Shown here: in pieces, positions 18,542 to 42,357 of the stretch
How the letters are laid out: each line of letters opens with the position of its first letter
Position numbering within the stretch: position 1 is the first letter of the stretch
Assembly (NCBI GenBank): GCA_017546585.1
Contig: JAFYWC010000133.1
Coordinates: 1-56,114 of the forward strand
Length of the DNA: 56,114 bases
From: Bacteroidales bacterium
Lineage (GTDB): Bacteria; Bacteroidota; Bacteroidia; Bacteroidales; UBA932
Direction: 5' to 3'
The notes under the pieces: generated by a model
Databases searched by the model: none
Seen by the model: only the letters and a program-made list of their open reading frames with translations
Told to the model about the DNA's origin: nothing
Program-made: the position numbers and the translations under genes

Positions 18542-19975
18542 TTATTTAATTCTCTCTTTGAAGAACTTTGACTGCTTTGTCGACCAGCCTGACGGATATG
18601 AGTGTCCCATCTTAGGATCAATGATCATTTCCTTGTCCTCGGTATTGAGGTTGTTGAAGGCCGCGAAGTTGGTATGAGGAGGGCAGGTGCCGTCCTGAAG
18701 ACCGCTGCTGGCGAGCACTGCGCAAGAGATCTTTGTCGCAAGATTCTTGGTGTCATAGTACGAAAGGAATGCATACATCTCCTCGTTGGTCATCGATCCC
18801 TGGTTGTCCTTCGCCACGTTTCCCGGCCACGACACGATGTCGAAATAGTCAGGATAGTCGCCGAGGAAAGCCACGTTGCAGGCGATAGCCGTAAACGGAT
18901 AGTCGCTGAGAGCTGCGCAGGCATACGAAAGCGCACCGCCCTGGCTCGAGCCCTCCGCAAAGAGGTTGGTCATATCGCATACGGAGCGTGATGCCATAAA
19001 GCGCACCGCCTGCACGCAGTCAAGGAAAGCGCCACGGTAGTAGAAGCCGTCCTTGTCTCCGAAGTTGAAGCCGAACCAGTTGTATTTGTCCTTAGGATTG
19101 AGGATCGAAGCATACTCGCAAGGGTCTGCGGCAGTCCACTCGCCGTGCTCTGCGATCCAGGTATCCTTCTTCTCATAGGCAGCCGCGCGGTTGTTGTGAT
19201 ACTGGCCGCGGGTAGAAAGGTAGAATTCCGCATAGTCGCCGTTTCCGCCTGAAGGCACGGTCACGCTTCCGCCACGGTCATCCCAGCCGAAGAAGTGCAT
19301 AATCACCGGATGCTTTCCTCCGTCCTGAGGCTCCACATAGAAGCCGCGCACGATCACAGGTTCTCCGTCCGGGCTGTTCGGAGCCGACTGCATCTCCACA
19401 AGATAAACCTTGGCGCTTGCACTGCTCTGAGGAGTAACCTCAAGAAGAGTGACTGTCTCACCCTCCACAAGCACAGGAAGGCTGTTCTTCGCATTTGCCC
19501 AGTACTCGTCGAAATCCGCCTGCATATCAGGAGCAGACACCACGTCATATGGAGAGATACCGAATGTGAAGTTGCTCGGAGTCTTCTTGTTGACCATACA
19601 CTTGGCCTTGTAGAAACCAGGCGCAAGGTCCTTTGTTGTGGTCACATTGATATTCTTCTTTCCCTTTGCAGGAATCTCGTCGGTGAACTCGATCACCTCT
19701 ACAGCCTCGCCCTTGTCGGTCGAGATGGTCACCTTCACAGCAGCCTCCATAGCGACAGCGTTGATGTTCTCAGCCTCGATGACGATCTCCGGTCTTGCAT
19801 CCCATACCCAGTTGTTGATTACAGGTACATTCAGCTTGAGGAGTTCAAGCTTTTCCGGTTCCTGCTGTTCCGGTTCCTTGTTGTCCGGTTCAGGTGTCAC
19901 CGGTTCTGTGCAGCCGATGAAAGTCATTGCGACAAGCGCAACGGCAGAAAGGAAAACGAATGGATTCTTCTTCAT
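18542..19975 (-). CDS. CE7-type acetyl esterase lipoprotein
   Basis: 477 residues. Lipobox FIGC (Cys22) with a Glu/Pro-rich linker, a beta-rich N-terminal part to about 140, then a cephalosporin-C deacetylase/acetylxylan esterase (CE7) domain: STRGQYH near 255, nucleophile Ser344 in EGSSQGGAL, Asp428 in ASSGLQDGTCPP and His458 in MGHSYPSG. CE7 enzymes remove O-acetyl groups from sugars. Context in a utilisation locus suggests de-acetylation of the imported or surface-held glycan. Eight bases from the alkaline phosphatase gene. Confidence 0.88.
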   Translation of the reverse strand: MKKNPFVFLSAVALVAMTFIGCTEPVTPEPDNKEPEQQEPEKLELLKLNVPVINNWVWDARPEIVIEAENINAVAMEAAVKVTISTDKGEAVEVIEFTDEIPAKGKKNINVTTTKDLAPGFYKAKCMVNKKTPSNFTFGISPYDVVSAPDMQADFDEYWANAKNSLPVLVEGETVTLLEVTPQSSASAKVYLVEMQSAPNSPDGEPVIVRGFYVEPQDGGKHPVIMHFFGWDDRGGSVTVPSGGNGDYAEFYLSTRGQYHNNRAAAYEKKDTWIAEHGEWTAADPCEYASILNPKDKYNWFGFNFGDKDGFYYRGAFLDCVQAVRFMASRSVCDMTNLFAEGSSQGGALSYACAALSDYPFTAIACNVAFLGDYPDYFDIVSWPGNVAKDNQGSMTNEEMYAFLSYYDTKNLATKISCAVLASSGLQDGTCPPHTNFAAFNNLNTEDKEMIIDPKMGHSYPSGWSTKQSKFFKERIK

Positions 19976-19983: not shown

Positions 19984-21153
19984 CTATTTAATAAGTTTCC
20001 TGATCATCTGCGAAAGCTCAGCATTCTCATAGATGCCGACAAACTGCTCTGCGCAAGGTCCCCATGCATATACAGGAAGAGCCACGCCGTTATGGCCTGT
20101 ATTTGAGAAGTTCACAGCAACGCTTTGCTCCTTGACATTGCCACCCTGAAGAGTCATCGCTCCTGTAGAGTGGTCTGCAGTCACGATCACGAGGGTCTCA
20201 CCGTCCTTTGCCGCCCACTCGAGAACAGCACCGACTGTACGGTCGAAATCAAGGATTTCCTCAACCGCGTAACCAACTTTATTTGCATGGCACCAATCAT
20301 CGATGCACGAGCCTTCCACCATCAGGAAGAAGCCGTTCTTGTTGTCAAGAATCTCAAGAGCTTTTACTACAGAAGCCTGATGCGCACCATTACGGTCAAG
20401 GGCAGCAGGAAGCTCCATATATGAAGTAAGAGCAATCACGGGACCATTCTGTACAGCATTTAGTTCCTCTACAGTCTTCACGAAAGTGTAGCCCTTTGCC
20501 TCAACCTCAGCAGTAAGGTCACGTCCGTCAGGACGATTCTCCCACCATCTGAGACCGCCTCCGAAAAGGAAGTCGAGCTTGCTGTCGACAAATTGTGCGG
20601 TGATATTATATAGGCTGTCGCGGTGAGGCGCGTGTGTCGAGAACACAGCCGGAGTGGCGTCGCAGATGCGGCATACCACTGATGTACCGGTCTTCTTGCC
20701 CTTTGACTTCGCATACTCTGAGAGAGTCTCGAGCGGCTGACCGTCAGGGGAAGTCGCGATCATACCGTTATTGGTCTTTGAACCGGTAGCGAGAGCAGTA
20801 CCTGCTGCTGCAGAGTCAGTCACGAGCTTGCTTGCAGAATAGGTCCACTGAAGGCCGACATAAGGGAAGTTGTCGGTAATGTTCAAGTGACGGTTGTTGA
20901 CAACCCAGGCAGTACTGAGCTGCTCAAGGCCCATTCCGTCACCGATCATAAAAATGATGTTTTTCACCTTCTTGCCCTTGGGCATAGCGACGGATACAGG
21001 CTCATAGGTCTGGATAGCCGTATAAAGGTCGTCATTCTCAAAATTGTTCACGGCATAGCGTGACTTGTCCCTCGAATCCGGATCCGGATTCTGCGCATAC
21101 GCCGACACGAAACCGCCGACCAGCAGCGCTGCTGCAAATAATATTCTTTTCAT
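19984..21153 (-). CDS. Alkaline phosphatase (PhoA family), secreted
   Basis: 389 residues. Signal peptide with likely cleavage after AYA (residue 20). NIIFMIGDGMG holds metal ligand Asp72; the nucleophile is Ser114 in VTDSAAAGTALATGSKT; GSCIDDWCHANK and VTADHSTGAM supply further metal ligands. Periplasmic phosphomonoesterase. Located among glycan genes rather than phosphate-uptake genes, and between CE7 esterase and the small lipoprotein with 8-10 base gaps, so it probably removes phosphate groups from the glycan or its fragments; the physical data for this are lacking. Confidence 0.9.
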   Translation of the reverse strand: MKRILFAAALLVGGFVSAYAQNPDPDSRDKSRYAVNNFENDDLYTAIQTYEPVSVAMPKGKKVKNIIFMIGDGMGLEQLSTAWVVNNRHLNITDNFPYVGLQWTYSASKLVTDSAAAGTALATGSKTNNGMIATSPDGQPLETLSEYAKSKGKKTGTSVVCRICDATPAVFSTHAPHRDSLYNITAQFVDSKLDFLFGGGLRWWENRPDGRDLTAEVEAKGYTFVKTVEELNAVQNGPVIALTSYMELPAALDRNGAHQASVVKALEILDNKNGFFLMVEGSCIDDWCHANKVGYAVEEILDFDRTVGAVLEWAAKDGETLVIVTADHSTGAMTLQGGNVKEQSVAVNFSNTGHNGVALPVYAWGPCAEQFVGIYENAELSQMIRKLIK

Positions 21154-21764: not shown

Positions 21765-22574
21765 TTAATACGTTACACGATGCTCATCATACGATTTTTC
21801 AATAAGCCAATCAGCGGATATCTGGAAACGGAACGGAAGGAGGGTGGTGTCATACAGCCCTTCTTCGAGAGCGTGCATAGACACAGTGACCAAGGTCCAC
21901 TGCTGAAGGACCTCCTCCGGAAGCTGACGGCGGATGTTGGCAAGATGGTAGTCCCACGCATTCACCAGCACAGCAACGAGCTTTACGTCCGGATTCTCTT
22001 TTACATTTTCAGACAAAGCCTGAAGGCAGGACGGGCAGTCTGCGTCCACAAAAAGCAGAAGCGTATGTTCGCCCTTGAAGTCAGAAAGCATCATCTCCTC
22101 ACCGGAATCACTCCTCACGGAAAGTTCCTGCGGAGCCATACCGGCACGGTTCACGTCCATACACTTCCTCATCAGCGCAAGGTGTTCCATCTGTGAACCG
22201 TCATCTATGACTTTATCTTCAAGCACCTTGTCCAGCCACGCAACGAAGAGGTCATCGTTACGGTAAGGCGATTCCTTGGCGTGAAGGAACGGCTCGAACC
22301 AGCTTGACCATACCATATATGCCACCACATTCTGCGATGCCGAATCGAGGAACTTTGTCATCTCCGCTACGGCTGTCTCGTAAGGCACCTGAGAGAGAAG
22401 GTCGATGAATCCGTCGAACTTATCCTCAGCGGCATCGATATCCTCAAATGCATCCAAAGTGGTGAAATCGTGTCCGTTCCAATATGCGGAAAGTTCCTGT
22501 GCCTTTTTTTCAGCACAGGAACATCCGGCGGCCAGGACCGCGGCCATCCATAATAACCAAAGTCTGAACTTCAT
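21765..22574 (-). CDS. DUF5106 / thioredoxin-like lipoprotein
   Basis: 269 residues. Lipobox LAAGC (Cys18). Residues about 30-150 look like the helical DUF5106 domain; the C-terminal part is a thioredoxin fold with the redox motif CPSC in LFVDADCPSCLQAL. It probably keeps or rearranges disulfides in the cell envelope, perhaps in the Cys-containing secreted enzymes next to it; that link is inference. Its ATG overlaps by one base the stop of the upstream divergent DUF4832 gene. Confidence 0.75.
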   Translation of the reverse strand: MKFRLWLLWMAAVLAAGCSCAEKKAQELSAYWNGHDFTTLDAFEDIDAAEDKFDGFIDLLSQVPYETAVAEMTKFLDSASQNVVAYMVWSSWFEPFLHAKESPYRNDDLFVAWLDKVLEDKVIDDGSQMEHLALMRKCMDVNRAGMAPQELSVRSDSGEEMMLSDFKGEHTLLLFVDADCPSCLQALSENVKENPDVKLVAVLVNAWDYHLANIRRQLPEEVLQQWTLVTVSMHALEEGLYDTTLLPFRFQISADWLIEKSYDEHRVTY

Positions 22575-23860
22575 TACTCTATATCAGCTTTGTATTCTAT
22601 CTTCTGTCCAGGAACGAGGTGGTCACACTCGATCTGAGGCACAGCCTCCGCTGAAACACCATTGCCCTGGATCCTGATCCACTGCTCTTCTCCCGGCATA
22701 AGTTTCTTGAGAGAGTACTCACCCTTTACGCCGCCTACAGACACATATGCATCCCTGTAGATCGGAGCCACTCCGATATTTGCGATAAGCACTGCCGCCT
22801 CGTTACCCTTCACACGGAAGTCCTTGATCTCGAACTTGTATCCCATCGACATCGAAGCCTCCTTGATTCTATCCATTGTCTGGTAGCTTGGCTGGTCGTT
22901 TCCGAGGATGTATGTCATATGATATTCCTCAACCTGGCTCTCAAATGTGCGTCCGTACATTCCCTCTACGTCAAGACAGTGCTTCTGGTCGTAGCTTGAG
23001 TAGTAGCTGAACTCACCTCCGCGTGGAGCGATCTTATAGCGGTCCTCACCGAAGAACATCCAGCATTCGCGGTTGTACTCGTGGTGTGTCTCGTGCATAA
23101 ACGAGTCATCGAAGTTTCCGAAAGGAATGTCAAGAAGTTCCTTCTTTGCCTTGAGCGGAGAGTAGAAGCTGTCGGCAGCATCGATAGAGATGCTCCAGGT
23201 AGTCTCCTGGAAATAGTTCTGCATCGCCTTGAAGAAAGTCTCCTGGAACTCCTTTGAAGGGAAGGTCCTGCCGATCTTGCAAGGTCCGTCGTAGATGTGG
23301 TACTCTGCCCAGAGACCGAAACCGGTCTGCACGAATGCAAGACGAGGGTCCTTGTCATAGCGCTCGGCGAACTTCTGGTGGAACTCGAGATGGAATCTCT
23401 GGAGTTCCTCGCAGCGCCAGTCAGGGAAATATGTAGTTCTTCCCTCGCTCTGACCCTTCATCTCCTCGTATCCCGGCCATTCCTTGATATAGTCAGGAAC
23501 CGCACACTCCTTACCTACATAAGTGTAGCGGAAACGGACCACAACCTGGTGACCGCGTGAAGCAGCCTGCTCAAGAAGGTTGTCCATCGGAGTCCAGTCA
23601 TATACGCCCTGTCCCTTGCATACGTCGTTATAAAGCATATAAGAGTACTCAAGCTGAACCTTGTCAGTATTGACCTTGCTGTGGGTGTTCCAAAGAACAA
23701 TTCCGGTCATCGGCTGTACGTTCTTGATCTCGCTCTTAAGCACCACGCGCTCGAAATCAGCGTACTCAGCACCTGACTGATTCTCATTGCCCTCCTGATT
23801 CGTTGCCGGAGTGCAGGCAAATGCAGCGAAAAGCGCTGCGACATACAATATCTTTTTCAT
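22574..23860 (-). CDS. Divergent DUF4832-like lipoprotein, putative glycosidase
   Basis: 428 residues; lipobox AFAC (Cys16). TIM-barrel-like, with YDWTPMDNLLEQAASRGHQVVVRFRYTY early in the barrel. It shares with the four genes at 26454-32849 two glutamates in similar settings: Glu186 in GFGLWAEYH and Glu283 in RGGEFSYY, 97 residues apart. The C-terminal 100 residues are a beta-sandwich (GYKFEIKDFRVKGNEA). In clan GH-A enzymes such a pair serves as acid/base and nucleophile. No known CAZy family was recognised; activity is inferred only. Confidence 0.7.
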   Translation of the reverse strand: MKKILYVAALFAAFACTPATNQEGNENQSGAEYADFERVVLKSEIKNVQPMTGIVLWNTHSKVNTDKVQLEYSYMLYNDVCKGQGVYDWTPMDNLLEQAASRGHQVVVRFRYTYVGKECAVPDYIKEWPGYEEMKGQSEGRTTYFPDWRCEELQRFHLEFHQKFAERYDKDPRLAFVQTGFGLWAEYHIYDGPCKIGRTFPSKEFQETFFKAMQNYFQETTWSISIDAADSFYSPLKAKKELLDIPFGNFDDSFMHETHHEYNRECWMFFGEDRYKIAPRGGEFSYYSSYDQKHCLDVEGMYGRTFESQVEEYHMTYILGNDQPSYQTMDRIKEASMSMGYKFEIKDFRVKGNEAAVLIANIGVAPIYRDAYVSVGGVKGEYSLKKLMPGEEQWIRIQGNGVSAEAVPQIECDHLVPGQKIEYKADIE

Positions 23861-23870
23861 AATGGTTCAA

Positions 23871-23939
23871 TAGATTTCTCCACTCACTTCGTTCGGTCGT
23901 AATCGGCTTGCCGCTTGAGCGACAGCGAAAGAAATGACA
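23871..23939. repeat. Orphan GIY-YIG-type repeat with 32-base insertion
   Basis: Begins TAGATTTCTCCACTC and ends AAATGACA, as in the other copies, but 23900-23931 inserts 32 bases containing the small palindrome CGCTTGAGCG between the core and the AAATGACA end. It fills most of the 85-base gap between two genes. Confidence 0.7.
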
Positions 23940-23945
23940 ATGGAC

Positions 23946-26450
23946 TTAGAATGTGAATTCAACCTTGAAGAGGGCTGATGAATCTGAGTCGTCCGCTACC
24001 CATACGCAGTTGTTTGCATAGTCAAGACATACAGACTCGCAGTTGCCGGCGAAGTTTGTCTTGTATGTAGCGAGGTGCTGGGTTGCATCACCGTTAAGGA
24101 GGTAGATAGACTGAGACTCAGAGTCGATGATCCAGATCTGATCCTTTACAGGGTCGTAGCTGATGTCAGCGATCTCCTGGCAGCCGATGGCTACAGTCTT
24201 TAGGCTCTTCTTCCATACAACAGTTCCATCGAGAGTATAAGCCCAAAGGTTCGCACCTGTCTGAGCGCCCACGAGAAGCATATTGTCCTTGTACCAAGCG
24301 ATACCCTCTACACCGCTGTTGCCATAGTTTGCAGCTTCCTCAACACGGAAGATCTCGACAGCCTTCTTGTACTCCGGCGCCTTCACAACACCTACCCAGT
24401 TGCTCTCGCAGCCCATATAGAGGTCTCCTGATACAGGGTCGATAGTGATTGCCTCCATATCGAGAGACTGCTTGAACTGCTGCTCAACCTTGCCGTCATA
24501 GCTGATCTTTACAAGAACACCCTGGTCGCCGACACCCCAAAGATGCTTGCTGTCCTGACTGATGCAAAGTCCTGAAAGCTCAGTTACATCAACAGAGTAT
24601 TTAGTGTACTTGCCCTTCACCGGAGTACCTGGGAGGTTCTCGAATGGGAATGACTCCTCAGTCACACAACGGACTGCGAAACCGTTTGCCTTTGGCTTGG
24701 TGCCGTTACCGTATGAAGGGTTGCCTGTATCGTTATAGATACGGAAGTTGTATCCATCTGTCGCCGAATCCGACTCGCGGCAGCACCATACACGTGTACC
24801 TGTACCATACTGGGCGTATTCACCGTTTGTAGTGATATAACCGCCGAGAGGATATACTGTCTCAGGATTACCTACTGTAAACATATGTGCAGAAGCATCA
24901 TATGACCAACCTGGAGCGTCCCAAGGATAGTTCGAATAGAGGATGTGCTCTGAACGGTAAGGCACTCTGTATCCTGGAGGGCACGGATCGTACATTGTCT
25001 TTGTGCTTCCCCACATATCAAGAGTCTTCACCTCGTTCCAGTTTGCATCTGTAGCGTTTGCGAACGCTGTAGGGTTCTTTGTTGTCTTGGCGATAGACAT
25101 CTGACCGCCGAAAAGGGTCATTTCCTGACCTGCAACTGCAGCAGGCTCGCCTGTAGTATAGTCACCGACACCTACGAACGGGTCTTTACGGCCCCACTGG
25201 TAGAAGAGACCGTTGGCCTTCGGAGATGTTCCGTCCACGTCAGCATCCACGAGGGCGCCGAGGTTACGGCTCATACTCTTGCGTCTTGAAAGACCGTAGA
25301 GGTCCTCGCAGATAGCAGTCTCCGGCATCCAGATATGCCAGCTCCACATAATCGCACCCATATCATTTCTTACGGCGATTACAGCATTTCCCGGATGGTA
25401 ACCCTCTGTCACCTGGAAGTAAACATTGTCCTTCTCGAAGTCTACGGCAGCGATGACGCTGTTAGGAGTCACCTCCTCGGTTGTTCCCCAAGACTCCCAA
25501 AGAATCTCTGCAGAACCGATTGAAGAAAGTGCAGTAGCGCTATTACCCTTTACAGCCTTGAATGTATATACGCCCGGCTCGGTAACAATGTAGCAGTTTG
25601 CAGTCTGTACCGCACCGAGGTTGACAGCACCTGCGGTAGGGATCGCGGACACGTGGCTGTCAGCCGACTGACTGAAGTCGGTAAGCTTTGAAGTGATGTC
25701 ACCGAAATCGATGAACTCGCTGCGCTTGATCTCGAGCTTGTCCTCGATATAGTAGCTCTTTACAGCGTTGCCACCCTTGTAGAATACGAGGTGGAATCCG
25801 TCTGCGAGAACAGGCTGGTCAGGGAAGCAGATGTGGTTGAGGGTAGCGCCGTCAGCCACAACAGTGCCGGTCACTACAGTCTGTGCAGTACCTCTGCTGT
25901 TCGCATATATCTTTGCGTTGCTGTTGACCTTGCAGCCCAGCGAAGAAAGTGATACAGTCTCGTCGTTGTTTCCACGAAGCTCATATGAATCCACGTCTGC
26001 AGACACTGTGAATGCAACTCCTCCGACAAGAGACTCAAGGACGAAAGTCTTGCCCTTGTCATAACCTGTAAGGAGCATCGCATTTGTAGTGTTGAACGTA
26101 TTCTGATCCTTGGAAGCATTGCTTACCGCCTCTGCCGGATATGCGAGATAGTACTTCGACTTCACGCCTGTCTGAGTGTAAGGCTCGATGTTGCCTACAG
26201 ACACATAGCAGGTCTTTCCGTCCTCTGAAATGTCAGCAGGTGTCAATGTGACTGTCACCTGGTCTGTCGAAGACGCTCCGTGGATGAGGACCTGGTCGCC
26301 CGGAACCCAAGCTTCCTTACCGTTCACGTAAGCTGCCGGGAGTTCACAAGAATACTTTTCGCCGTTGTCCTGGCCTGGCTCAGGACCTACTGGCTTTTCG
26401 CACGATGCGAACAAGGCGCATACGATTGCAATGCTGAAAATTCGTTTCAT
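23946..26450 (-). CDS. Lipoprotein: fimbrillin-like, FISUMP and SdiA-regulated-type propeller domains
   Basis: 834 residues, lipobox FASC (Cys17). Residues about 30-255 are fimbrillin-like (AWVPGDQVLIHGASS, GGVAFTVSADVDSYELRG) and closely parallel the N-terminal domain of the next upstream gene. Residues about 275-600 include a FISUMP-type module with MYDPCPPGYRVP (487-497). From about 615 the protein turns into a beta-propeller of SdiA-regulated/esterase-like type (ELSGLCISQDSKHLWGVGDQ, DMEAITIDPVSGDLYMG). Likely a surface binding or adhesion protein; no enzymatic residues were identified. Three bases from the upstream gene. Confidence 0.75.
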   Translation of the reverse strand: MKRIFSIAIVCALFASCEKPVGPEPGQDNGEKYSCELPAAYVNGKEAWVPGDQVLIHGASSTDQVTVTLTPADISEDGKTCYVSVGNIEPYTQTGVKSKYYLAYPAEAVSNASKDQNTFNTTNAMLLTGYDKGKTFVLESLVGGVAFTVSADVDSYELRGNNDETVSLSSLGCKVNSNAKIYANSRGTAQTVVTGTVVADGATLNHICFPDQPVLADGFHLVFYKGGNAVKSYYIEDKLEIKRSEFIDFGDITSKLTDFSQSADSHVSAIPTAGAVNLGAVQTANCYIVTEPGVYTFKAVKGNSATALSSIGSAEILWESWGTTEEVTPNSVIAAVDFEKDNVYFQVTEGYHPGNAVIAVRNDMGAIMWSWHIWMPETAICEDLYGLSRRKSMSRNLGALVDADVDGTSPKANGLFYQWGRKDPFVGVGDYTTGEPAAVAGQEMTLFGGQMSIAKTTKNPTAFANATDANWNEVKTLDMWGSTKTMYDPCPPGYRVPYRSEHILYSNYPWDAPGWSYDASAHMFTVGNPETVYPLGGYITTNGEYAQYGTGTRVWCCRESDSATDGYNFRIYNDTGNPSYGNGTKPKANGFAVRCVTEESFPFENLPGTPVKGKYTKYSVDVTELSGLCISQDSKHLWGVGDQGVLVKISYDGKVEQQFKQSLDMEAITIDPVSGDLYMGCESNWVGVVKAPEYKKAVEIFRVEEAANYGNSGVEGIAWYKDNMLLVGAQTGANLWAYTLDGTVVWKKSLKTVAIGCQEIADISYDPVKDQIWIIDSESQSIYLLNGDATQHLATYKTNFAGNCESVCLDYANNCVWVADDSDSSALFKVEFTF

Positions 26451-26453
26451 ATA

Positions 26454-28589
26454 TTACAGATTAAATTCAAATATCTTGTTGTAGCCATAAGTGTCGTTCC
26501 AGATACCGTCGTTTGCAAGGCGGATAGAGAAACGAGGATTGTCGTGGAGGGTCGGCTTAGGGTCAGGAAGATTGAGGTAAAGAGTACACTTTCCTGATGC
26601 GTCTGACGGAATCTTCACGACCTTGTCGATGTTGACTGTCCTTCCTGCGAACCAGTAACGAGGGTCTACGTCATTGAACTCGTAGACTGTCTTCTTTCCT
26701 TTGCCGTCGATGAGGACAAGCTCGAAGCCGCGGCCGTTCATCGGAGCGGCGAAGCCGGAGTTCTTTATCTGAAGGACTACATTGAGGTCCTCTCCTGCTG
26801 CAGGTGTAGAATGGTATGCGTCAGCGAATGAGAGTCTGTAGCCGAGACGACGCTCGATCTCATCCCAGCAGCCTCCGTTCTTCCATACATTGTGCACATT
26901 GCGGTTGTACTCGATGTTGAGGTATGTCCAGTGGTAATCCTCGCAGTCTCTGAGGGAAACCTCACATTCGCAGTGAGATGACACCGCGCAGGTCTCTCCA
27001 CCCATAAGGGTGTATCTCGTATCCCTCTTCCAGTACTCGCGGGTAGCCTCGCCGTCGAATGTACCCTGGTCTGACGAAGACGCACCGAAACAGTCGTTGA
27101 AGCCGCTGATACGTGCCTTCGGCGACTCGTTGTATGCTGTTGCAAGGGTCAGGGTGTCGCGGTAGCCGCTTGCATACATATTTCTCTTGAACATAGGGGT
27201 ACGCAAGCCGATAGAGCGATCCTTCGGAAGAGCCTCGAGCATAGCGTCAGTCACCTGCTTGCGGAGAACGTGATCCTCCGGTGTGCTTGGAGTGAACTCG
27301 AAATTCTCGGTGTAATACCACTCGCCCCATACGCCGACGAAGCCCGCCTGGAGACACATAATGACATCGCTGTACTCCTGAAGGATAGGCGTGATGTCCT
27401 TGATGTGCTGCTGAACTACCTCAGGAGTAGGATCCCAAGGTTTCTCGTTCTCGCTGTCGGAGTATGCGAAACGCATAATACACTTCGCTCCGTTCTCTCT
27501 GAGGACCTGCATATTGTTTCTGACCATCTGGAGGAAGCCCTCTGAGATGGCGCCGTTCATATATTTCTTAGGATAGAAGCCGAGGTAGCAGATGGTTCTG
27601 TTCTGAAGTCTGTTCGACTCGATCTTGCTCGCTGTAAGAAGCGACGCGTTGTCAGACTTGAAACTCTGTGTGAAGTAGAATCCCCTCTCCGGATTAGGGA
27701 AGAGGGCATCTGTCTCTGTGAAGGAAATGTGGGTAAGGTGGCTGTAGTCAGGAAGCACCTCAGGATCGTGGATCGAATCGTCAACCACAACCTCATCTGT
27801 AAGCTGTGATGTGATGTCGCCGAGGTCGATGAAGCTGTCGCGTGGAATGTCGACCTCTCCCATCATATCAAGAACCTTGACACGCTTGCCGGCCTTACAC
27901 ATATACATCTTGAATCCGTCCTGGAAATAAGGCTGACGGAAAGGGAAATAAATCTTGTTGGCTGTAGCACCGTCAGCAACGATCTCACCAGAGATCTGAG
28001 TCTTCTCGCCTACCTGGTTCTGGCCAGGGACATTGATCTTGTCTGTGATGCGGCAAGACACCTGATCGTAGCCGAGGACTTCGTCGTATGTTCCTACGAG
28101 TTCGTATGAATCGTAGTCACCCTTTACGGTGAATACCATTCCTCCTACGATATACTTGAACACGATTTTCTTGTCTTCAGTATCGTAGCCGCTCATAAGG
28201 ACAGTGGCAGGATAAGTGCTGAATGTGTTCACCTCCTTGCACTCTCCCTCGTTCTTGACGAGGTCGGCAGGATATGCGGCCAGAAACTTTACTGTTGAGT
28301 TGGTACCCTTGTATCTCTTGAGTCCTTCAAGATTGACTGTACACAAAGTGTCGTCGATGATGTCCTTTTCTGTAAGAGTAAAGATCTTCTGGTTATCGGA
28401 ACTTCCTCCGTGAACAAGAATCTTGTCTCCCGGCACCCAGGCAGTCTTTCCGTGCTCCACTACAGGGAGCTGGCAGATATAGTCATACTCCGGGTTCACG
28501 CCTGGCTGCGGCTCAGGCTGCGGATGACGTTCGCAAGAGGCGAGGATTGCTGAAAGGCCCAAAAGGACAAGACCTAAAATTCTTTTCAT
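26454..28589 (-). CDS. DUF4832/DUF4874 lipoprotein with fimbrillin-like N-domain
   Basis: 711 residues from the ATG at 28589, where the signal MKRILGLVLLGLSAILASC (Cys19) begins; an in-frame upstream reading to 28664 is rejected. Residues 30-265 are the fimbrillin-like module shared with 23946-26450. From 285 the protein is DUF4874/DUF4832: NPERGFY (299), the barrel with Glu423 in GVWGEWYY, and Glu532 in MGGETC, 109 residues apart. The C-terminal beta-domain ends IRLANDGIWNDTYGYNKIFEF. Probable glycosidase, substrate unknown. Confidence 0.8.
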   Translation of the reverse strand: MKRILGLVLLGLSAILASCERHPQPEPQPGVNPEYDYICQLPVVEHGKTAWVPGDKILVHGGSSDNQKIFTLTEKDIIDDTLCTVNLEGLKRYKGTNSTVKFLAAYPADLVKNEGECKEVNTFSTYPATVLMSGYDTEDKKIVFKYIVGGMVFTVKGDYDSYELVGTYDEVLGYDQVSCRITDKINVPGQNQVGEKTQISGEIVADGATANKIYFPFRQPYFQDGFKMYMCKAGKRVKVLDMMGEVDIPRDSFIDLGDITSQLTDEVVVDDSIHDPEVLPDYSHLTHISFTETDALFPNPERGFYFTQSFKSDNASLLTASKIESNRLQNRTICYLGFYPKKYMNGAISEGFLQMVRNNMQVLRENGAKCIMRFAYSDSENEKPWDPTPEVVQQHIKDITPILQEYSDVIMCLQAGFVGVWGEWYYTENFEFTPSTPEDHVLRKQVTDAMLEALPKDRSIGLRTPMFKRNMYASGYRDTLTLATAYNESPKARISGFNDCFGASSSDQGTFDGEATREYWKRDTRYTLMGGETCAVSSHCECEVSLRDCEDYHWTYLNIEYNRNVHNVWKNGGCWDEIERRLGYRLSFADAYHSTPAAGEDLNVVLQIKNSGFAAPMNGRGFELVLIDGKGKKTVYEFNDVDPRYWFAGRTVNIDKVVKIPSDASGKCTLYLNLPDPKPTLHDNPRFSIRLANDGIWNDTYGYNKIFEFNL

Positions 28590-28611
28590 AGTATCAGTGT
28601 TATTGTGGTTA

Positions 28612-30000
28612 TTATAGCTTAAGTTCAAGCAGTCTGTTGTATCCTGTCTTTTCGTCCCAGACATCGTCGTTTGCCAGTCTTATGGAGAAAAGAGGGTTGT
28701 TGCGGAGGCTGAACTCCGGATCGGGAAGATTCAGGTATATCGCGCAGTCGCCTGCCGCATCCTCCGGAATCTTTATTTCCCTGTCAATGGTTATCGTCTC
28801 GCCGGCGAACCAGTAGCGTGGGTCGACCCACTTCAGCTGGCTTATGGTCTTCTTGCCGTTGCCGTCCACAAACACCAGCTCTACGTCGCGGGGGTTCATA
28901 GGGGCTGCGAAGCCTGTGTTCTTCAGTTCAAGTATCAGTCTATAGTTTCTGCCCGGAACAGGATCCGGATCATAGTGAATGTCAGTCAGTGTTATTCTGT
29001 AGCCGAGACGCTTCTCGATCTCGTCGTAGCATCCGTGTTCTTTCCATCTGTTGGAAATGTTCACCGGACCGCTCATATAGGTCCAATGGTAGTCCTCACA
29101 ATCCTTGACGGATCTGTCGCAGAGGCAGTATTCCGAAATCTGGCAGGTCTCGCCTCCCATCATCAGATATCTTGACTCCTTCTTCCAGAACTCTCGCTCG
29201 GCATTCTTGGTGAAAGTCCCCATATCGGTAGCATCAGCACCGAAGCAGTCATTGTGACCGCAGATCCTGGAAAGGTCCGATCCGTTGTACGCTGTTTCCA
29301 ACGTCACAGAATCAGCATAGCTGTCAAGGAACATATTCATCTTGTACCTTCCCGTGCGGACCGCGATGGTGCGGTTCTTCGGCAGAGCATCAAGCAGGGC
29401 GACCATAACGTCTCTTCTTGACTCATAGTCTTCAGGAGTCTTCGGACTTGACATAAAGCCGTCAGTAAATGCCCACTCGCCCCATACACCGATGAATCCC
29501 GCCTGAAGGACCATTATCACGTCGCTGTTGCGCTGCAGCACAGGCTTCAGCTGCTCGATATGACGGTGTACCCACTCAGGCTGCGCATCCCAAGGATGAC
29601 CGGTCTCATACATATCGGTCTTGTATGCAAAGCGGAGCACGCATTTCACTCCTCCTTCCCTCAAGGCCCTCATATTTGCATCAATAAGATCCAAGAACTC
29701 CTGCGAAATATCCGACTCCATAAAGTCGGTCAGGTAGTAGCCTGTGTACAGGACCGTCCTTTTCTGCACTCTCTGCGCATTGAGGAAGGGTTTGCTCAAG
29801 ACCGCATCCGATGCCGACATCCAGTTTCTGCCCGCATCAAATCCCCTTTCAGGATTTGCAAAGGCCTTCTTAGATTCTTTAAAACCCTGGTGTGCTAGAC
29901 CAGGGTATCTTGTGCTCACTTCATAGTCAAGACCCTCGGGAGAGCATCCGACAAGAACACTCATCAAAGCGATGGCTATGAGATGAAATAAGTTTTTCAT
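28612..30000 (-). CDS. DUF4832/DUF4874 lipoprotein, putative glycosidase (copy C)
   Basis: 462 residues; lipobox LVGC (Cys19). NPERGF near 50; Glu175 in GVWGEWAF and Glu284 in MGGETC; C-terminal domain with GFAAPMNPRDVELVFVDGNG. It is the most divergent of the four tandem paralogues. Its start codon directly follows a 36-base REP-like hairpin that makes up the whole spacer from the gene upstream. Anchored in the envelope; activity inferred from the paired glutamates and context. Confidence 0.8.
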   Translation of the reverse strand: MKNLFHLIAIALMSVLVGCSPEGLDYEVSTRYPGLAHQGFKESKKAFANPERGFDAGRNWMSASDAVLSKPFLNAQRVQKRTVLYTGYYLTDFMESDISQEFLDLIDANMRALREGGVKCVLRFAYKTDMYETGHPWDAQPEWVHRHIEQLKPVLQRNSDVIMVLQAGFIGVWGEWAFTDGFMSSPKTPEDYESRRDVMVALLDALPKNRTIAVRTGRYKMNMFLDSYADSVTLETAYNGSDLSRICGHNDCFGADATDMGTFTKNAEREFWKKESRYLMMGGETCQISEYCLCDRSVKDCEDYHWTYMSGPVNISNRWKEHGCYDEIEKRLGYRITLTDIHYDPDPVPGRNYRLILELKNTGFAAPMNPRDVELVFVDGNGKKTISQLKWVDPRYWFAGETITIDREIKIPEDAAGDCAIYLNLPDPEFSLRNNPLFSIRLANDDVWDEKTGYNRLLELKL

Positions 30001-30036
30001 ACGTCATTGCGAGGCTCGAAGAGCCGTGGCAATCTT
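30001..30036. repeat. REP-like hairpin forming the whole intercistronic spacer
   Basis: On the minus strand it reads AGATTGCCACGGC, loop TTC within GGCTC/GAGCC, then CTCGCAATGACG. The outer ATTGC/GCAAT also pair. Ends AGATT and AATGAC match the ends of the GIY-YIG-type repeats, but the core differs, so it is a related subfamily. It lies exactly between the stop at 30037 and the ATG at 30000. Confidence 0.75.
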
Positions 30037-31452
30037 TTACAAAGTAAATTCAGCGATCTTGTTATATCCGGTCTTCGAATCCCATACATTGTCGTTCGCA
30101 AGGCGGACAGAGTAGAGAGGATTGTCGTGGATAGTCTTATACGGATCAGGAAGATTCAGATAAAGGACACACTTGCCGGATGCATCTGCCGGAAGCTTGA
30201 CAACCTTGTCGATGACGTTTGTCTCGTTTGCGAACCAATAGCGCGGATCCACATCCTTGAATGCATAAACGGTCTGCTTGCCGTTGCCGTCCACGAGGAT
30301 AAGTTCAACGTCACGCGGATTTGCAGGAGCAGCGAAGCCGGAGTTCTTGAGGCCGATTCTTACTCGGAAGTTCTCGCCTGCCGCAGGCTTCTTAGGAACT
30401 GCCACCTCAGTGAGTGAAAGTCTGTAGCCGAGACGACGCTTCACCTCGTCCATACATCCTTCTGATTCCCAACGGCTGAGGACATCAGCGTTGTAGCCAC
30501 GGTTAAGATATGTCCAATGATAGTCTTCGAGGTCCTTCAATGACTGCTTGCACTTGCAATAGTCTGAAATGCCGCAGGTCTCACCGCCCATAAGGGTGTA
30601 TCTGGTGTCCTTCTTCCAATATTCACGGCTCTTGCTGCCGTTGAAGGTACCGTAGTCGTCGGATGAAGCACCGAAGCAGTCATTGAATGCACAGATACGC
30701 GCCTTTGTCGAGCCGTCGTATGCAGTTTCAAGAGTCAACGTGTCTGTGTAGCTTTCCGCATACATATTCTTCTTGAACATAGGAGTGCGGAGAGCGACCT
30801 GACGGTCTGCAGGGATAGCATCAAGCATCGCATCGACAACGGCCTTGCGAAGCGAGTGCTGCTCCGGATTCTGCGGATTGAAATAGAAATTGTCTGTGTA
30901 ATATCCCTCGCCCCATACGCCGATGAAACCGGACTGGAAGCAGAGGATCACGTCGCTGTACTCCTGGATGATAGGTTTCAACTGCTCGATGTGACGTGCC
31001 ACCCACTCCGGAGTCGCGTCATAAGGCTTCTTGTCTGTGCTGTTTGTGTAAGCGAAACGGAGAAGGCACTTTGCTCCACCGTCACGGAGAGCCTGCATAT
31101 TCTTTCTGAAAAGCTCAAGATACTTCTCCGAGATATCCGACTTCACGAACTCTGTGAGATAGTGGCCTGTATAGAAAAGAGTCACATTGTTCGCTGTCCT
31201 CTCTGTCTGTACAGCGGACACTGTAAGAGGCGACGCTGTAGACTTGAGGCAGTCGAAATGCTTATAGAAACCACGCTCAGGGTTGGCGAAGATCGCGTCA
31301 GACTCCTTGTATGAAACAGAAGTCATCTGTGTATCCGGTACAAGTTCCTCAGGATTGCCCGGAACTTCAGGGCTCTGTGGGCCTTCTACAGGAGTGCAGG
31401 CAAGGAAAGACGCAAGCACGCCTACGAGAAGTATATTGGCTATCAGTTTCAT
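30037..31452 (-). CDS. DUF4832/DUF4874 lipoprotein, putative glycosidase (copy B)
   Basis: 471 residues; lipobox FLAC (Cys19) and a Pro/Glu linker. NPERGFYKH near 58; Glu182 in GVWGEGYY and Glu291 in MGGETC, 109 apart as in its paralogues. Central CAFNDCFGASSDDYGTF corresponds to the cysteine- and aspartate-rich loop kept in all four. C-terminal domain GFAAPANPRDVELILVDGNG. Separated from copy A by 8 bases. Confidence 0.8.
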   Translation of the reverse strand: MKLIANILLVGVLASFLACTPVEGPQSPEVPGNPEELVPDTQMTSVSYKESDAIFANPERGFYKHFDCLKSTASPLTVSAVQTERTANNVTLFYTGHYLTEFVKSDISEKYLELFRKNMQALRDGGAKCLLRFAYTNSTDKKPYDATPEWVARHIEQLKPIIQEYSDVILCFQSGFIGVWGEGYYTDNFYFNPQNPEQHSLRKAVVDAMLDAIPADRQVALRTPMFKKNMYAESYTDTLTLETAYDGSTKARICAFNDCFGASSDDYGTFNGSKSREYWKKDTRYTLMGGETCGISDYCKCKQSLKDLEDYHWTYLNRGYNADVLSRWESEGCMDEVKRRLGYRLSLTEVAVPKKPAAGENFRVRIGLKNSGFAAPANPRDVELILVDGNGKQTVYAFKDVDPRYWFANETNVIDKVVKLPADASGKCVLYLNLPDPYKTIHDNPLYSVRLANDNVWDSKTGYNKIAEFTL

Positions 31453-31460
31453 ATTCGTGG

Positions 31461-32849
31461 TTAAAGAGTGAATGTAGCGATCTTGTTGTAACCTGTCTCC
31501 TCATCCCATACGTCTTCGTTGGCAAGACGGATAGAGAAGCGAGGGTTGTCGTGGAGAGTCACCTTAGGGTCAGGAAGGTTGAGGTAGAGAGTGCACTCGC
31601 CTGAAGCATCTGCAGGGATCTTGATCATTCTGTCGAGAGTGATCGCCTCTCCTACGAACCAGTAGCGTGGATCCACATCCTTAAGCTCATATACAGTCTT
31701 CTTGCCGTTGCCGTCAACGAAAACAAGTTCTGCAGCGCGTGGGTTCACAGGAGCCGCGAAACCGGTGTTCTTGATCTTGAGTACAACATTGAAGTCCTCG
31801 CCTGCAACAGCCGCAGGAGTGTGGTAGATGTCAGAGATATGGAGTCTGTATCCGAGTCTACGCTCGATCTCATCCATACAGCCGTCATCTCTCCAACGCT
31901 TGAGAACCTGTCCGTTATATGCGCTGTTGAGGTATGTCCAGTGATACTCCTCCATATCCTTGAGAGACTGCTCGCACTTGCAGTAGCTTGAAAGCGCGCA
32001 GGTCTCGCCTCCCATAAAGGTGTATCTTGAATCCTTCTTCCAGAACTCACGGGTCTCCGCATTCTTGAATGTACCCTGGTCGTTTGCAGAGGCACCGAAG
32101 CAGTCGTTGAAGCCGCTGATACGTGCACGGTCGCTGCCGTTGTATGCTGTCTCTACTGTAAGAGTATCGGTGTAGCTGTCAGCGTACATCATTCTCTTGA
32201 ACATAGGAGTACGGAGAGATATTGTCCTGTCTTTTGGAAGGGCTGCGAGCATAGCGTCAGTCACCTGCTTGCGGAGAGCGTGCTCCTCCGGAGTGTCAGG
32301 GTTTGAAACGAAGTTCTGAGTGTAGTACCACTCGCCCCATACGCCCACGAAGCCGGCCTGGAATGTAAGGATCACGTCGCCATACTCCTGAAGGATAGGC
32401 TTGACGTCCTCGATGTGAGTGAGGACCACCTCGAGAGTAGGATCCCAAGGGTACTCGTTCTCACTATCTGAATATGCGAAACGAAGAACACACTTTGCAC
32501 CGTTGTCACGAAGGGTCTGCATATTTGTCCTGATGATCTGGAGGAACTCTTCGCCGATGTGGCCGTCCATATAATCCTTCGGATAATATCCGTTGTAGAA
32601 GATGGTTCTGTTGAGAGCTCTCTGTGACTCCACAGCCTTTGCTGAGATCAAAGCCTCTGACGAATTTGAATGGTAGTCCTTTACAGTGTAGAATCCGCGC
32701 TCAGGATTAGGGAATTTCGCATCAGTCTCGGAAAGCTCGATGTGAGTGAGACCAGGATACTCTGTCTTGTCCTGAGGATCATCGGTAGAAATGCACGAAA
32801 CTGCCAAAGCAATGCAGGCAGCCGATGTAAAGAAGTTCAATAATTTCAT
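31461..32849 (-). CDS. DUF4832/DUF4874 lipoprotein, putative glycosidase (copy A)
   Basis: 462 residues; lipobox AVSC (Cys19). NPERGFY at 48-54; Glu173 in GVWGEWYY and Glu282 in MGGETC; SGFNDCFGASANDQGTF between them. First of four tandem paralogues after the SusCD-binding-protein group, so probably translated at high level. All four are about 460-470 residues apart from the one with an added N-domain. The role in glycan cleavage is inferred. Confidence 0.8.
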   Translation of the reverse strand: MKLLNFFTSAACIALAVSCISTDDPQDKTEYPGLTHIELSETDAKFPNPERGFYTVKDYHSNSSEALISAKAVESQRALNRTIFYNGYYPKDYMDGHIGEEFLQIIRTNMQTLRDNGAKCVLRFAYSDSENEYPWDPTLEVVLTHIEDVKPILQEYGDVILTFQAGFVGVWGEWYYTQNFVSNPDTPEEHALRKQVTDAMLAALPKDRTISLRTPMFKRMMYADSYTDTLTVETAYNGSDRARISGFNDCFGASANDQGTFKNAETREFWKKDSRYTFMGGETCALSSYCKCEQSLKDMEEYHWTYLNSAYNGQVLKRWRDDGCMDEIERRLGYRLHISDIYHTPAAVAGEDFNVVLKIKNTGFAAPVNPRAAELVFVDGNGKKTVYELKDVDPRYWFVGEAITLDRMIKIPADASGECTLYLNLPDPKVTLHDNPRFSIRLANEDVWDEETGYNKIATFTL

Positions 32850-32917: not shown

Positions 32918-33670
32918 TTACTTTGCAACTGTAATTGCGAGCATAGGAGCTGCACCGTTAGCGTTGTCGTCAGCGGTAGCTGTGTTAGGAAGAACGCCAA
33001 CTGAGTTCCAATCCTGCTGGATATCGAAGCCGATTGTGAAGTTGTCAGAAAGCTCCATACCCTGAACCATCTCGATCATAATAGCGAGCTCATACTTGTT
33101 GCCGTTACCAGCACCTGAAGCGATTCCAGAACCCTCTGGAAGAACCTCACCGTAAGCCCACTCGATTGTGTCCTCAGCACCGTCGTAAGAGAAGAGACCT
33201 GGGTTGTAAGAGCAGAAAGCGCCGTCAGCGATAACTGCACCCTCGAGGAGCCAATCCTGACCACCCTGGCCGATCCACTGGTCGTTACCTGTAGCCTCGC
33301 TAGCATCCTGGTTGATGTAAACGTGGAAAGGAACCCAAGCGAGGTCAACGATCTCGTCCTCTGAGAACTCGAAGTACACGTTGATGTACATCTCGTCAGC
33401 GTAAACCTTTACCTTCTCGAGTGCAGTCCACTTAGCATCAGCGTTGCAAGTTGCAGTAACAGCTGATACGTTGTTCCAGTCTGCGAAGTCACCGTCGATA
33501 GTGATTGGAGACTCGTAGTCACCGCAAGTACAATCAGCCTCTGGCTCACCGCACTCAGGGCAAGTTACTACAGTGTTGTTACCGCCCTGTGGCTTCTCCT
33601 CCTTGTTACAAGCTGTGAAAGCGATTGCAACAGCAGCAAACATAGCTGCAAAAGTCATAAACTTTTTCAT
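32918..33670 (-). CDS. Surface glycan-binding lipoprotein (CBM9-like), copy 1
   Basis: 250 residues. Lipobox FTAC (Cys21). A short Cys cluster (CPECGEPEADCTCG, about 38-51) follows, which could bind metal. Then ITIDGDFADWNNV opens a CBM9-like sandwich (VKVYADEMYINVYFEF). Paralogue of 14298-15038. Immediately after SusD (64-base gap), the place where surface glycan-binding proteins of PULs are found, so that role is likely. Confidence 0.72.
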   Translation of the reverse strand: MKKFMTFAAMFAAVAIAFTACNKEEKPQGGNNTVVTCPECGEPEADCTCGDYESPITIDGDFADWNNVSAVTATCNADAKWTALEKVKVYADEMYINVYFEFSEDEIVDLAWVPFHVYINQDASEATGNDQWIGQGGQDWLLEGAVIADGAFCSYNPGLFSYDGAEDTIEWAYGEVLPEGSGIASGAGNGNKYELAIMIEMVQGMELSDNFTIGFDIQQDWNSVGVLPNTATADDNANGAAPMLAITVAK

Positions 33671-33734: not shown

Positions 33735-35480
33735 TTACTGCTTTCCGTTACCTGAAATACCGCTTACTGAAATCTCAGCGAATGGGATACAGTATGGGAA
33801 TCTCTTGTCCATCTGAGCCTTGTCAAGTTCCTCCCAAGGGTGAACACCAGCGTAACGACGGTCGAGAACCTTACCGTTTCTGAATACGTCGATTGCACGG
33901 TGACCCTCGAAGCAGAGCTCAAGACGACGCTCGTCGAGAACTACGTCAACAAGGTCAGCATACTCATTTGTATAATTGTCTGCAGTCCAAGTAGGGATAC
34001 CTGCACGCTCGCGGATCACGTTAGTGTACTTGAGAGCGTTAGTTACATCACCCTTGTGCGCATAAGCCTCAGCTGCGTTGAGAACGACTTCAGCCCAACG
34101 GATAACTGCCGGTGAAGAAAGCATAGGGTCGCCGTCCTGCCAAGAGAACTTAGACATTGTGTATGCCGGGTAAGTCTGACGGATACCCTTTGCAACACCT
34201 ACGTTAGGACGAACGTATACTCTTGTACCGCCCTCGAAACCGTCGTTGTCCTGAGCGTCAGTGTACATACCTGTGATGTAGTACTGAGTATAGCCGTTTA
34301 CTACCTTTGACTTAAGAGTGTAGCTCTTGCCGTCGAATGAGAGACTTGCAAGGTTCTCAGGATCCTCACCAAGCTTAACCTTACCTACGTTTGCATTTGC
34401 GCGGAAGTTGTTAGACTCGTCGATGATTGGCCAGTGAACCATCATAGTACCGTCATTTGTAAGGTCAAGCTGTCCGTAATAAGTCAGACGCTTGTCCTCT
34501 GGGTGACGCATAATGAGCTCGATAAGCGGATCAGACCAGTACATCTCACACCAACCTGTACCACCGATAGCATCGTTAGAGTAGTACATAGAAGCGAGCT
34601 GGCTCTTTGGAGAGTAGTCAGCACCCTCGTCGTCGTTATCCTTTGCGATGCACCAGAGAGTCTCCTTTGAAGTTCTTGTGTTAGGATAGTAAGTTGTGAT
34701 GTCGTCGAGCTTAGAAGATGCGTTGCCGCCGAAGAGCTCCTCAGCGAGAGCGATACACTTGTCATACTCACCCATATAGAGATAAACTCTTGTAAGGAGA
34801 CCTGCAGCGGCCTCGTAGCTTGCGTAACCTGCGTTGCCACGACGTGTGCCGGCCTTCATAAGCTCCATTGCGCGCTGGAGGTCAGATACGATCTGCTCGT
34901 ATACAGCACCTACAGTAGCACGCTCAGTTACAGAGCAGTCTGTAGAGTTGCGGATAACTACACCCGGCATATCAGGACGCTTCTCTGAACCATAGGTATA
35001 AGGAGTAGCGAATACGTTGCAGAGGTTGAGGTGAGCAACCGCACGGATGAAGTAATTCTCACCGAGGAGGTGGTCTGTAGCAACATCCACACCCTCTGGA
35101 ATCGACTCGATATTCGAGTTTGCACCGTAGATGATCTTATATGATGCGAACCAGAAATACTGGAGGTCGAGAGTCTGCGGGTTGTCACCGTAAACACAGT
35201 CCTCATAAAGAGGGTCAGTTGTACGACCTGAGAGACATACGTTGTCACCACGGAGCTCAGTCATCAGGAAGAGGATACGTGAATATGTATATCCACCGTA
35301 CATTCCGTCAGCGTAGTCAAGGTGCTGATAGAACATTGAGTAGTTTCCATCAGTTGTATAGACAGCTGCTCCCGGATTCTCTTTGAGCATCGATGAAGTC
35401 ATTGTGTCTGAACGGTAGAAGTCCATATTACAAGACACAAGGGCTGCAGCAGCTGCAATCATCATTAATATCTTTTTCAT
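33735..35480 (-). CDS. susD: SusD-family nutrient-binding outer-membrane lipoprotein
   Basis: 581 residues. Lipobox ALVSC (Cys17), NMDFYRSDTMTSS after it, and the alpha-helical TPR-type body with SusD C-terminal motifs (RWAEVVLNAAEAYAHKGD, VVLDERRLELCFEGHRAIDVFRNGK). SusD forms the lid on the SusC channel and binds the glycan. 24 bases after susC. Sequence does not tell the glycan; the neighbouring GH109 and GH36-like genes point to GalNAc/Gal. Confidence 0.95.
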   Translation of the reverse strand: MKKILMMIAAAAALVSCNMDFYRSDTMTSSMLKENPGAAVYTTDGNYSMFYQHLDYADGMYGGYTYSRILFLMTELRGDNVCLSGRTTDPLYEDCVYGDNPQTLDLQYFWFASYKIIYGANSNIESIPEGVDVATDHLLGENYFIRAVAHLNLCNVFATPYTYGSEKRPDMPGVVIRNSTDCSVTERATVGAVYEQIVSDLQRAMELMKAGTRRGNAGYASYEAAAGLLTRVYLYMGEYDKCIALAEELFGGNASSKLDDITTYYPNTRTSKETLWCIAKDNDDEGADYSPKSQLASMYYSNDAIGGTGWCEMYWSDPLIELIMRHPEDKRLTYYGQLDLTNDGTMMVHWPIIDESNNFRANANVGKVKLGEDPENLASLSFDGKSYTLKSKVVNGYTQYYITGMYTDAQDNDGFEGGTRVYVRPNVGVAKGIRQTYPAYTMSKFSWQDGDPMLSSPAVIRWAEVVLNAAEAYAHKGDVTNALKYTNVIRERAGIPTWTADNYTNEYADLVDVVLDERRLELCFEGHRAIDVFRNGKVLDRRYAGVHPWEELDKAQMDKRFPYCIPFAEISVSGISGNGKQ

Positions 35481-41559: not shown

Positions 41560-42357
41560 CTATTCACGGTCCGGCTTCACTGTTATCACTTCCAGATCCA
41601 TTGACTTGAGCTGGGAGCGGATCGACTTGTCCAGACCGTCGTCAGTCACGACCGCATCTATGTTCGAAAGGTCGGTGATGAAGGCGAAGGAGCGCTTGTT
41701 CACCTTGCTGGAATCGAACACTGTAATGACCTTTCTCGAACGCGAAATCATAATCTGGTTGATGTTCGCCTCCTCCACACTCGGAGTCGAGATGCCGTTC
41801 TCCACGCTGAAGGAATCCACACCGAGGAAAAGCTTGTCGCAGTAGAACATCTTGAGGTTAGACTCGGCGAGCGCTCCGACCACTGATTCGCTTGAGCTTC
41901 TGATGTTTCCGCCCAGAAGAATCACATTGAAACGCTTGTATGAAAGGACTTCCTGCGCCACGTTGAGGGCGTTGGTGAGGACTGTCAGATTCTTGAACTT
42001 ATGGAGGTTGCACGCCACCTGAAGTGCGGTCGTTCCGGAGTCGATGATGACGATGTCTCCGTCCTCGATCAGGTCGGCTGCAGCACGGCCGATAGCCTGC
42101 TTCTCGCGGTAGTGCGCAAGCTTCTTGAAACGTATGCTCATCTCATCTTCGTTGGTGCCAGTGTCATTGGTGATGGCACCGCCTCTGGTTCTCACCAGAA
42201 GATTCCTGTCCTTGAGGAGATTCAGGTCCTTCCTGATGGTGACCTCGGACACTCCGAAGTGCTTGCTGAGCTCTGTTACAGAGACATTGGAATTTTTCTT
42301 GAGGATCTGGAGAATCGCGCTTCTCCTTCCGCTGGACGACACTACTTTTCCTACCAT
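41560..42357 (-). CDS. DeoR/GlpR-family transcriptional regulator
   Basis: 265 residues from the ATG at 42357; the longer reading to 42387 runs into the -7 box. N-terminal winged helix (VTELSKHFGVSEVTIRKDLNLL, about 22-43) then RTRGGAI, and a DeoRC sugar-phosphate-sensing domain with DGDIVIIDSGTTALQVACNL and LTNALNVA. Family members repress sugar operons until a sugar phosphate binds. Between the agaS arm and the pfkB-GH operon, with operator-like repeats at both: the likely local switch. Tagatose or galactosamine phosphate would be a fitting effector, but this is inference. Confidence 0.9.
   Translation of the reverse strand: MVGKVVSSSGRRSAILQILKKNSNVSVTELSKHFGVSEVTIRKDLNLLKDRNLLVRTRGGAITNDTGTNEDEMSIRFKKLAHYREKQAIGRAAADLIEDGDIVIIDSGTTALQVACNLHKFKNLTVLTNALNVAQEVLSYKRFNVILLGGNIRSSSESVVGALAESNLKMFYCDKLFLGVDSFSVENGISTPSVEEANINQIMISRSRKVITVFDSSKVNKRSFAFITDLSNIDAVVTDDGLDKSIRSQLKSMDLEVITVKPDRE

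Follow-up and report, generated by a model that had tools for sequence, protein, structure and literature searches.

We propose that five lipoproteins encoded in a 56,114-nucleotide stretch of a Bacteroidales genome (contig JAFYWC010000133.1, hereafter the window) are glycoside hydrolases of the PF16173+PF16116 (DUF4874+DUF4832) family, which would cut an exopolysaccharide of alpha-linked N-acetylgalactosamine (GalNAc) or galactosamine (GalN) for the surrounding locus to consume. We favour this reading as a whole at a little better than even; of its parts, glycosidase activity with a pair of invariant glutamates as the catalytic residues is strongly expected, and an alpha-GalN/GalNAc exopolysaccharide is a reasonably probable substrate. 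What was computed here is the glutamate pair with its position in the barrel, as well as the gene content and co-occurrence across genomes; substrate, catalysis and its stereochemistry, localisation and pathway we infer.

The glutamate pair and the barrel that carries it

The five open reading frames (ORFs) lie where a sequence-only reading had placed them, all on the minus strand, and a lipobox is found in each of the proteins by pattern match (5/5). Both Pfam profiles score well above their gathering scores in four of them, which we call canonical, and the fifth falls under the DUF4832 gathering score (18.4 vs 29.2 bits). By hhalign profile comparison the fifth protein is kin to the canonical ones (80%, E 1.4e-5); it aligns in register with them at both glutamates and its fold is related too.

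The invariance claimed for the two glutamates held on a wide alignment, with both present in 166/166 distinct bacterial proteins (119 canonical, 17 fifth-type and 30 further). The 119 and 17, in which the pair is complete, come from GTDB loci plus the window, four weak matches being left out; the canonical set has a median identity of 42% (1500 sampled pairs), and among the 33 glutamates of the 31461 protein only the noted pair is kept in all 119 aligned proteins. The pair is also kept in 30/30 proteins of a Pfam-found set, in 17/17 more homologues (one common with the Pfam-found set), some of which retain only VGAWGE and LE of the motifs, and in 10/10 phage homologues. We note that the first glutamate is partly selected in the GTDB hits, since the motif used to fetch these loci (L056-L131) contains it; the second is in no search pattern. 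Among distinct proteins found by profile outside the window, where the motif was not used, the pair is present in 42/42, of which 12 also belong to the 119-protein set, the bacterial sets overlapping. Asp249 is invariant as well.

The residue numbers first given for the pairs stand for three canonical proteins and the fifth (Table 1). The fourth pair is 448/557 in ORF 26454-28664 and not 423/532, a numbering that begins at an internal Met (28589); because a signal peptide with a lipobox follows that Met, it is the likelier start of the lipoprotein. All ten glutamate codons are GAG. The spacing of exactly 109 residues is true of the four tandem copies and fails as a rule: it occurs in 40/119 canonical proteins, is 97 in the fifth, and spreads from 101 to 132 over the 119, which rules it out as a family signature. 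In the four copies the common spacing reflects shared descent. They fall in one clade of the tree (13 rows, support 99), and since counterparts of three of them exist in L057 or L058, most of the amplification predates these species; the 28612 copy groups only with a near-identical copy in L056.

In AlphaFold models (mean pLDDT 96.4 for the 31461 protein, and 86.7), DUF4874 and DUF4832 are predicted to build a single (beta/alpha)8 barrel between them, each supplying half, with a sandwich added. In the 31461 model Glu173 (model residue 154) falls in the loop that follows strand 141-145, and strand 260-264 bears Glu282 (model residue 263). The first glutamate lies 9 (canonical) or 8 (fifth) residues beyond the DSSP end of barrel strand 4, and the second is on, or at the end of, barrel strand 7 in both kinds of model. 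This agrees with the glycosidase-type barrel with two invariant glutamates that had been envisaged.

The further claim of membership in clan GH-A survives in part, namely in barrel topology and in the glutamates at strands 4 and 7. The hallmark of that clan is an Asn directly before the strand-4 glutamate. We reject the filing because this hallmark is absent, the position being Gly172 in 119/119 canonical and Ala185 in 17/17 fifth-type proteins; moreover, among the fold matches listed the fifth protein appears closest to the beta-amylases (GH14), and GH5 and GH14 tie as nearest to the canonical fold. Profile comparison did not bear out kinship with GH-A families either: with GH5 sequences 290-520 residues long the matches were short and reached 11% and 43%, and GH42 (four sequences) gave no match. 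The window proteins thus differ from GH5 and the rest of the clan in the missing Asn, and neither the GH5 nor the GH42 profile matches them in a meaningful way. A first hhalign match to GH5 (68%) was discarded because it sat in a C-terminal stretch that the window protein lacks and that holds sorting-type tails in other members. The GH14 profile PF01373 matched none of the five proteins at E up to 0.01, and GH14 matches in Bacteroidota are short and partial (4/148 genomes); the window proteins also differ from beta-amylases in their beta-sandwich C-terminus and gene context. Searches of PDB sequences with the proteins and profiles returned nothing meaningful.

The endo-galactosaminidase families GH114, GH135, GH166 and GH191 are described in passages of PMC12054363 as TIM barrels whose substrate, like that proposed here, is Pel or galactosaminogalactan, with an Asp nucleophile and a Glu acid/base, as compared to the Glu/Glu pair of the DUF4832 family, where Asp249 is invariant too; GH114, GH166 and GH191 have a strand-3 insertion. 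None of the four is named among the fold matches listed, which does not exclude them.

A probable galactosamine locus around the lipoproteins

The window forms a single contig in a metagenome-assembled genome (MAG) of 2.49 Mb, and all five DUF4832 matches found genome-wide fall within the window. Among the relatives fetched, the closest is a MAG from water-buffalo colon (L056), with 95-99% identity across three of the proteins, so that an animal-gut origin of the bacterium is likely. That the five genes sit in a SusCD and GalNAc/GalN catabolic locus was upheld by profile and PDB sequence matches (Table 1). The minus-strand run from AgaS (40865) to an AXE1 esterase (18542) is tightly spaced, with intergenic gaps of -1 to 85 bases, and SusC and SusD adjoin the lipoproteins and glycosidases, as defines a polysaccharide utilisation locus; upstream or divergent are an AgaR-type regulator, a PfkB kinase, GH36, GH109 and an N-acetylhexosamine 1-kinase.

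Table 1. Features of the locus in the window, with the codons of the glutamate pairs
Feature	Position	Strand	Glutamate codons	Match or remark
AXE1-family esterase, same gene run	18542..19975	-		Pfam 3e-39
Alkaline phosphatase, same gene run	19984..21153	-		Pfam 3.5e-68; cluster in 24/76 loci
Fifth, divergent DUF4832-like lipoprotein	22574..23860	-	Glu186 23303-23305, Glu283 23012-23014	
Lipoprotein with SdiA-regulated-type propeller, same gene run	23946..26450	-		Pfam PF06977 1.8e-5
DUF4874+DUF4832 lipoprotein 4, extra N-terminal module	26454..28589 (ORF opens 28664)	-	27321-27323, 26994-26996	Pfam 9.8e-40 and 1.1e-52
DUF4874+DUF4832 lipoprotein 3	28612..30000	-	Glu175 29476-29478, Glu284 29149-29151	Pfam 5e-38 and 1.6e-49
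DUF4874+DUF4832 lipoprotein 2	30037..31452	-	Glu182 30907-30909, Glu291 30580-30582	Pfam 8.5e-42 and 1.3e-58
DUF4874+DUF4832 lipoprotein 1	31461..32849	-	Glu173 32331-32333, Glu282 32004-32006	Pfam 1.5e-39 and 8.6e-56
Lipoprotein, SusE position	32918..33670	-		No Pfam match; sequence cluster in 55/76 loci
SusD	33735..35480	-		Pfam 8e-28
SusC	35505..38468	-		TIGR04056 2.1e-213
GatZ/KbaZ-like tagatose-bisphosphate aldolase subunit	38509..39735	-		Pfam 1.8e-33; under NCBIfam equivalog cut-offs
AgaS-family sugar-phosphate deaminase/isomerase	39741..40865	-		TIGR02815 6.8e-107, 357.7 bits, below curated cut-off 529.2
AgaR-type DeoR regulator	41560..42357	-		NF040755 251.2 bits vs cut-off 260
PfkB sugar kinase	42618..43571	+		Pfam 6e-50
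GH36 homologue of FpGalNase alpha-galactosaminidase, lipoprotein-type start	43575..45602	+		PDB 9awt E 3.1e-52
GH109 alpha-N-acetylgalactosaminidase homologue	45636..47060	+		Pfam 5e-37; PDB 6t2b E 2.4e-85
N-acetylhexosamine 1-kinase homologue	47063..48133	+		PDB 4wh1 E 6.3e-79

Residues 75-669 of the GH36 protein align with FpGalNase, a blood-group galactosaminidase; PDB 8x1b, named merely alpha-galactosidase, scores equally well. In the alignment, read by eye, Asp427, Cys479 and Asp498 correspond to FpGalNase Asp463, Cys513 and Asp532, whose alanine mutants are nearly inactive (PMC11762096), and Tyr464 is not kept. An FpGalNase-like GH36 beside a GH109 suggests that the locus probably encodes exo-enzymes for alpha-GalN and alpha-GalNAc, both of which are sugars of Pel (PMC9135694).

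Among 37 genomes of the genus, AgaS and this GH36 homologue are each found in exactly nine, those having the cluster (canonical copies >160 bits and a weak match of fifth-type size); the Fisher value is 8e-9, uncorrected for kinship or MAG incompleteness, or 4e-7 if G406 and G423, which have only more divergent DUF4832, are counted in. AgaS shares a contig with DUF4832 in 8/9 of them, the exception being G410. Across 395 Bacteroidota genomes AgaS occurs in 5/18 with DUF4832 vs 15/377 without (p 0.0011), and in all five the two share a contig, 2.4 to 32 kb apart; none of the AgaS matches in these counts reaches the TIGR02815 curated cut-off. The neighbours in 76 motif-fetched GTDB loci, with flanks of up to 10 kb, include SusC (56), SusD (55), AgaR (21), AgaS (18), a GH31 cluster (18), GatZ (15), GH36 (13) and GH109 (4).

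Several further features of these loci were observed. Similar stretches around AWVPGD suggest that the 23946-26450 protein has an N-terminal module in common with the N-terminal part of 26454-28589, and the SdiA-regulated-type propeller recurs among the neighbours in other DUF4832 loci (12/80). A DUF4434 protein at 50178-51575 (Pfam 4.7e-42), with a weak fucosidase-like match, is a possible uncharacterised barrel near the locus. An Amidohydro_2 protein (L107:1138-2244), a candidate deacetylase, recurs in 11/76 loci and adjoins GH36 in L086 and L108. Cultured relatives with a DUF4832 locus are Dysgonomonas sp. BGC7 (L086, where GatY accompanies GH36) and Alkaliflexus imshenetskii (L100). A contig binned as Leptolinea (Chloroflexota; L061) has a Bacteroidales-type SusCD/DUF4832 locus, possibly through a binning error.

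Pel-type polymers as the proposed substrate, and the competing candidates

The sequence-only reading knew of no assigned activity for the family. This has been overtaken by a 2025 report of a DUF4832 protein as an active glycoside hydrolase: SIR_1591 of Streptococcus intermedius, once expressed, dispersed Pel-dependent aggregates comparably to PelAh, and the passages on it assign neither catalytic residues nor a family (PMC12345266). SIR_1591, a TIM barrel plus seven-strand domain of 468 residues by construct numbering, resembles the window proteins, by its published description, in its DUF4832 label, GalNAc polymer context and predicted extracellular location. It is, however, a Gram-positive biofilm-maker's own enzyme, encoded beside a pel operon, as compared to the tandem lipoproteins of a catabolic SusCD locus. 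DUF4832 genes are also described as adjoining pel clusters (PMC7112168). We rejected Pel of the bacterium's own making, since PelG was above cut-off in 0/61 relatives, with one weak match below it. In CC-licensed PMC text (subscription papers and CAZy being outside the scope) we found no paper on such a catabolic locus and none naming the accessions PF16173/PF16116; four name DUF4832 and one DUF4874.

Alternatively, the family might act on another alpha-galactose or galactosamine polymer, such as a bacterial capsule, lipopolysaccharide or an alpha-galactan, with different members on different polymers. We regard this as doubtful, and several observations nonetheless weigh on its side. The tested member of the GH31 cluster (L106) matches the GH31 alpha-galactosidase PDB 8j53 (E 1e-202); speaking against a single substrate, DUF4832 is found together with this cluster, and with no GalNAc gene, in five full-flank loci (Dysgonomonas, Bacteroides congonensis, Capnocytophaga); a DUF4832 gene lies within a Klebsiella oxytoca exopolysaccharide cluster (PMC6258164); and the recurrent alkaline phosphatase hints that the polymer may bear phosphate. 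Yet the window is dominated by GalN- and GalNAc-type genes, and across the genus AgaS and GH36 go with the cluster. We note that the S. intermedius pel operon also has CotH-like and polyphosphate-polymerase genes (PMC12345266). The loci L078, L085, L095, L106 and L120, in Bacteroides, Dysgonomonas and Capnocytophaga, represent a second locus type, with SusCD, DUF5017, a hybrid two-component regulator, GH31 and one DUF4832 protein.

The mucin O-glycans first suggested as substrate would make this a host-glycan locus, its proteins cutting glycans that bear alpha-GalNAc (Tn, core 1, blood group A). Some points count in its favour: GH109 and an APH-type GalNAc kinase jointly serve mucin GalNAc in Bacteroides thetaiotaomicron BT4240-50 (PMC11992087), the deacetylated A antigen is removed by an FpGalNase-type GH36 (PMC11762096), and gut or rumen MAGs make up many of the relatives, going by record titles. 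BT4240-50 shares SusCD, GH109 and the APH-type kinase with the window locus, and differs in having an M60-like peptidase and a GH2; the main text of PMC11992087 on that locus does not mention AgaS, GatZ or PfkB, and a DUF4832 search did not return the paper. Few mucin-trimming genes stand among the neighbour families listed: 80 of the 82 large unlabelled same-strand neighbours were scanned, and the 25 of 88 families listed include one GH20, one fucosidase, one sulfatase and one M64 peptidase, although more single cases may lie among the rest. Homologues lie by Pel operons (PMC7112168) and phage tail genes, the family is carried by phages and by genera known as free-living or oral, and the sole tested DUF4832 protein acts on Pel (PMC12345266). 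We consider a mucin substrate unlikely.

Surface glycan binders are common in Bacteroidota loci, and the presence of four or five copies next to SusCD would suit a non-catalytic, glycan-binding role for some copies that retain the barrel, but both glutamates and the surrounding invariant residues are kept in every copy, whereas pseudo-enzymes usually lose their catalytic acids, which makes this improbable.

Phage homologues and a proposed mechanism

Ten IMG/VR contigs carry the DUF4832 family; a tblastn search of public phage records gave no match. In L132 the DUF4832 ORF (6675-9284) sits between two genes with PHROG tail matches, in L134 (7935-12059) a baseplate gene lies upstream, and in L141 (5112-9281) the next large ORF has a portal match. 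Elsewhere, L139 has terminase and portal genes, L135 a virion structural gene and L136 a DNA polymerase; in L133 and L138 the genes tested gave no match. A viral structure library gave as its top match a DUF4832 protein labelled Ackermannviridae. The tail, baseplate and portal neighbours fit a depolymerase role, and the barrels of L132, L134 and L141, in ORFs of 869-1389 residues, are likely tail depolymerases.

Because the five window proteins lie beside galactosamine-use genes, we propose that the bacterium feeds on biofilm glue. At the cell surface, the lipoproteins would cut an alpha-linked GalNAc/GalN exopolysaccharide of the Pel or galactosaminogalactan type, which other microbes produce; the copies may divide the labour, perhaps by the different linkages first suggested for them. 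Fragments would be taken in via SusCD, GH36 (alpha-GalN) and GH109 (alpha-GalNAc) would free the monosaccharides, and the kinases, AgaS and the GatZ-like aldolase subunit would channel these to glycolysis under the control of AgaR. The likely roles are proton donor for the glutamate that follows strand 4 and base or nucleophile for the one on strand 7; because of the analogy with GH14, an inverting, beta-amylase-like mechanism would be favoured.

More tentatively, we speculate that PF16173+PF16116 represents a beta-amylase-like Glu/Glu inverting type of alpha-galactosaminidase, new in mechanism next to GH114, GH135, GH166 and GH191, with which gut and rumen Bacteroidota eat the Pel or galactosaminogalactan of other microbes and phages cut that same matrix. 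If so, two domains of unknown function would merge into a single enzyme family whose candidate catalytic residues are named, gut and rumen bacteria would possess a catabolic route for the cationic biofilm polymers Pel and galactosaminogalactan, and the family, phage forms included, would offer a set of candidate biofilm-dispersing enzymes.

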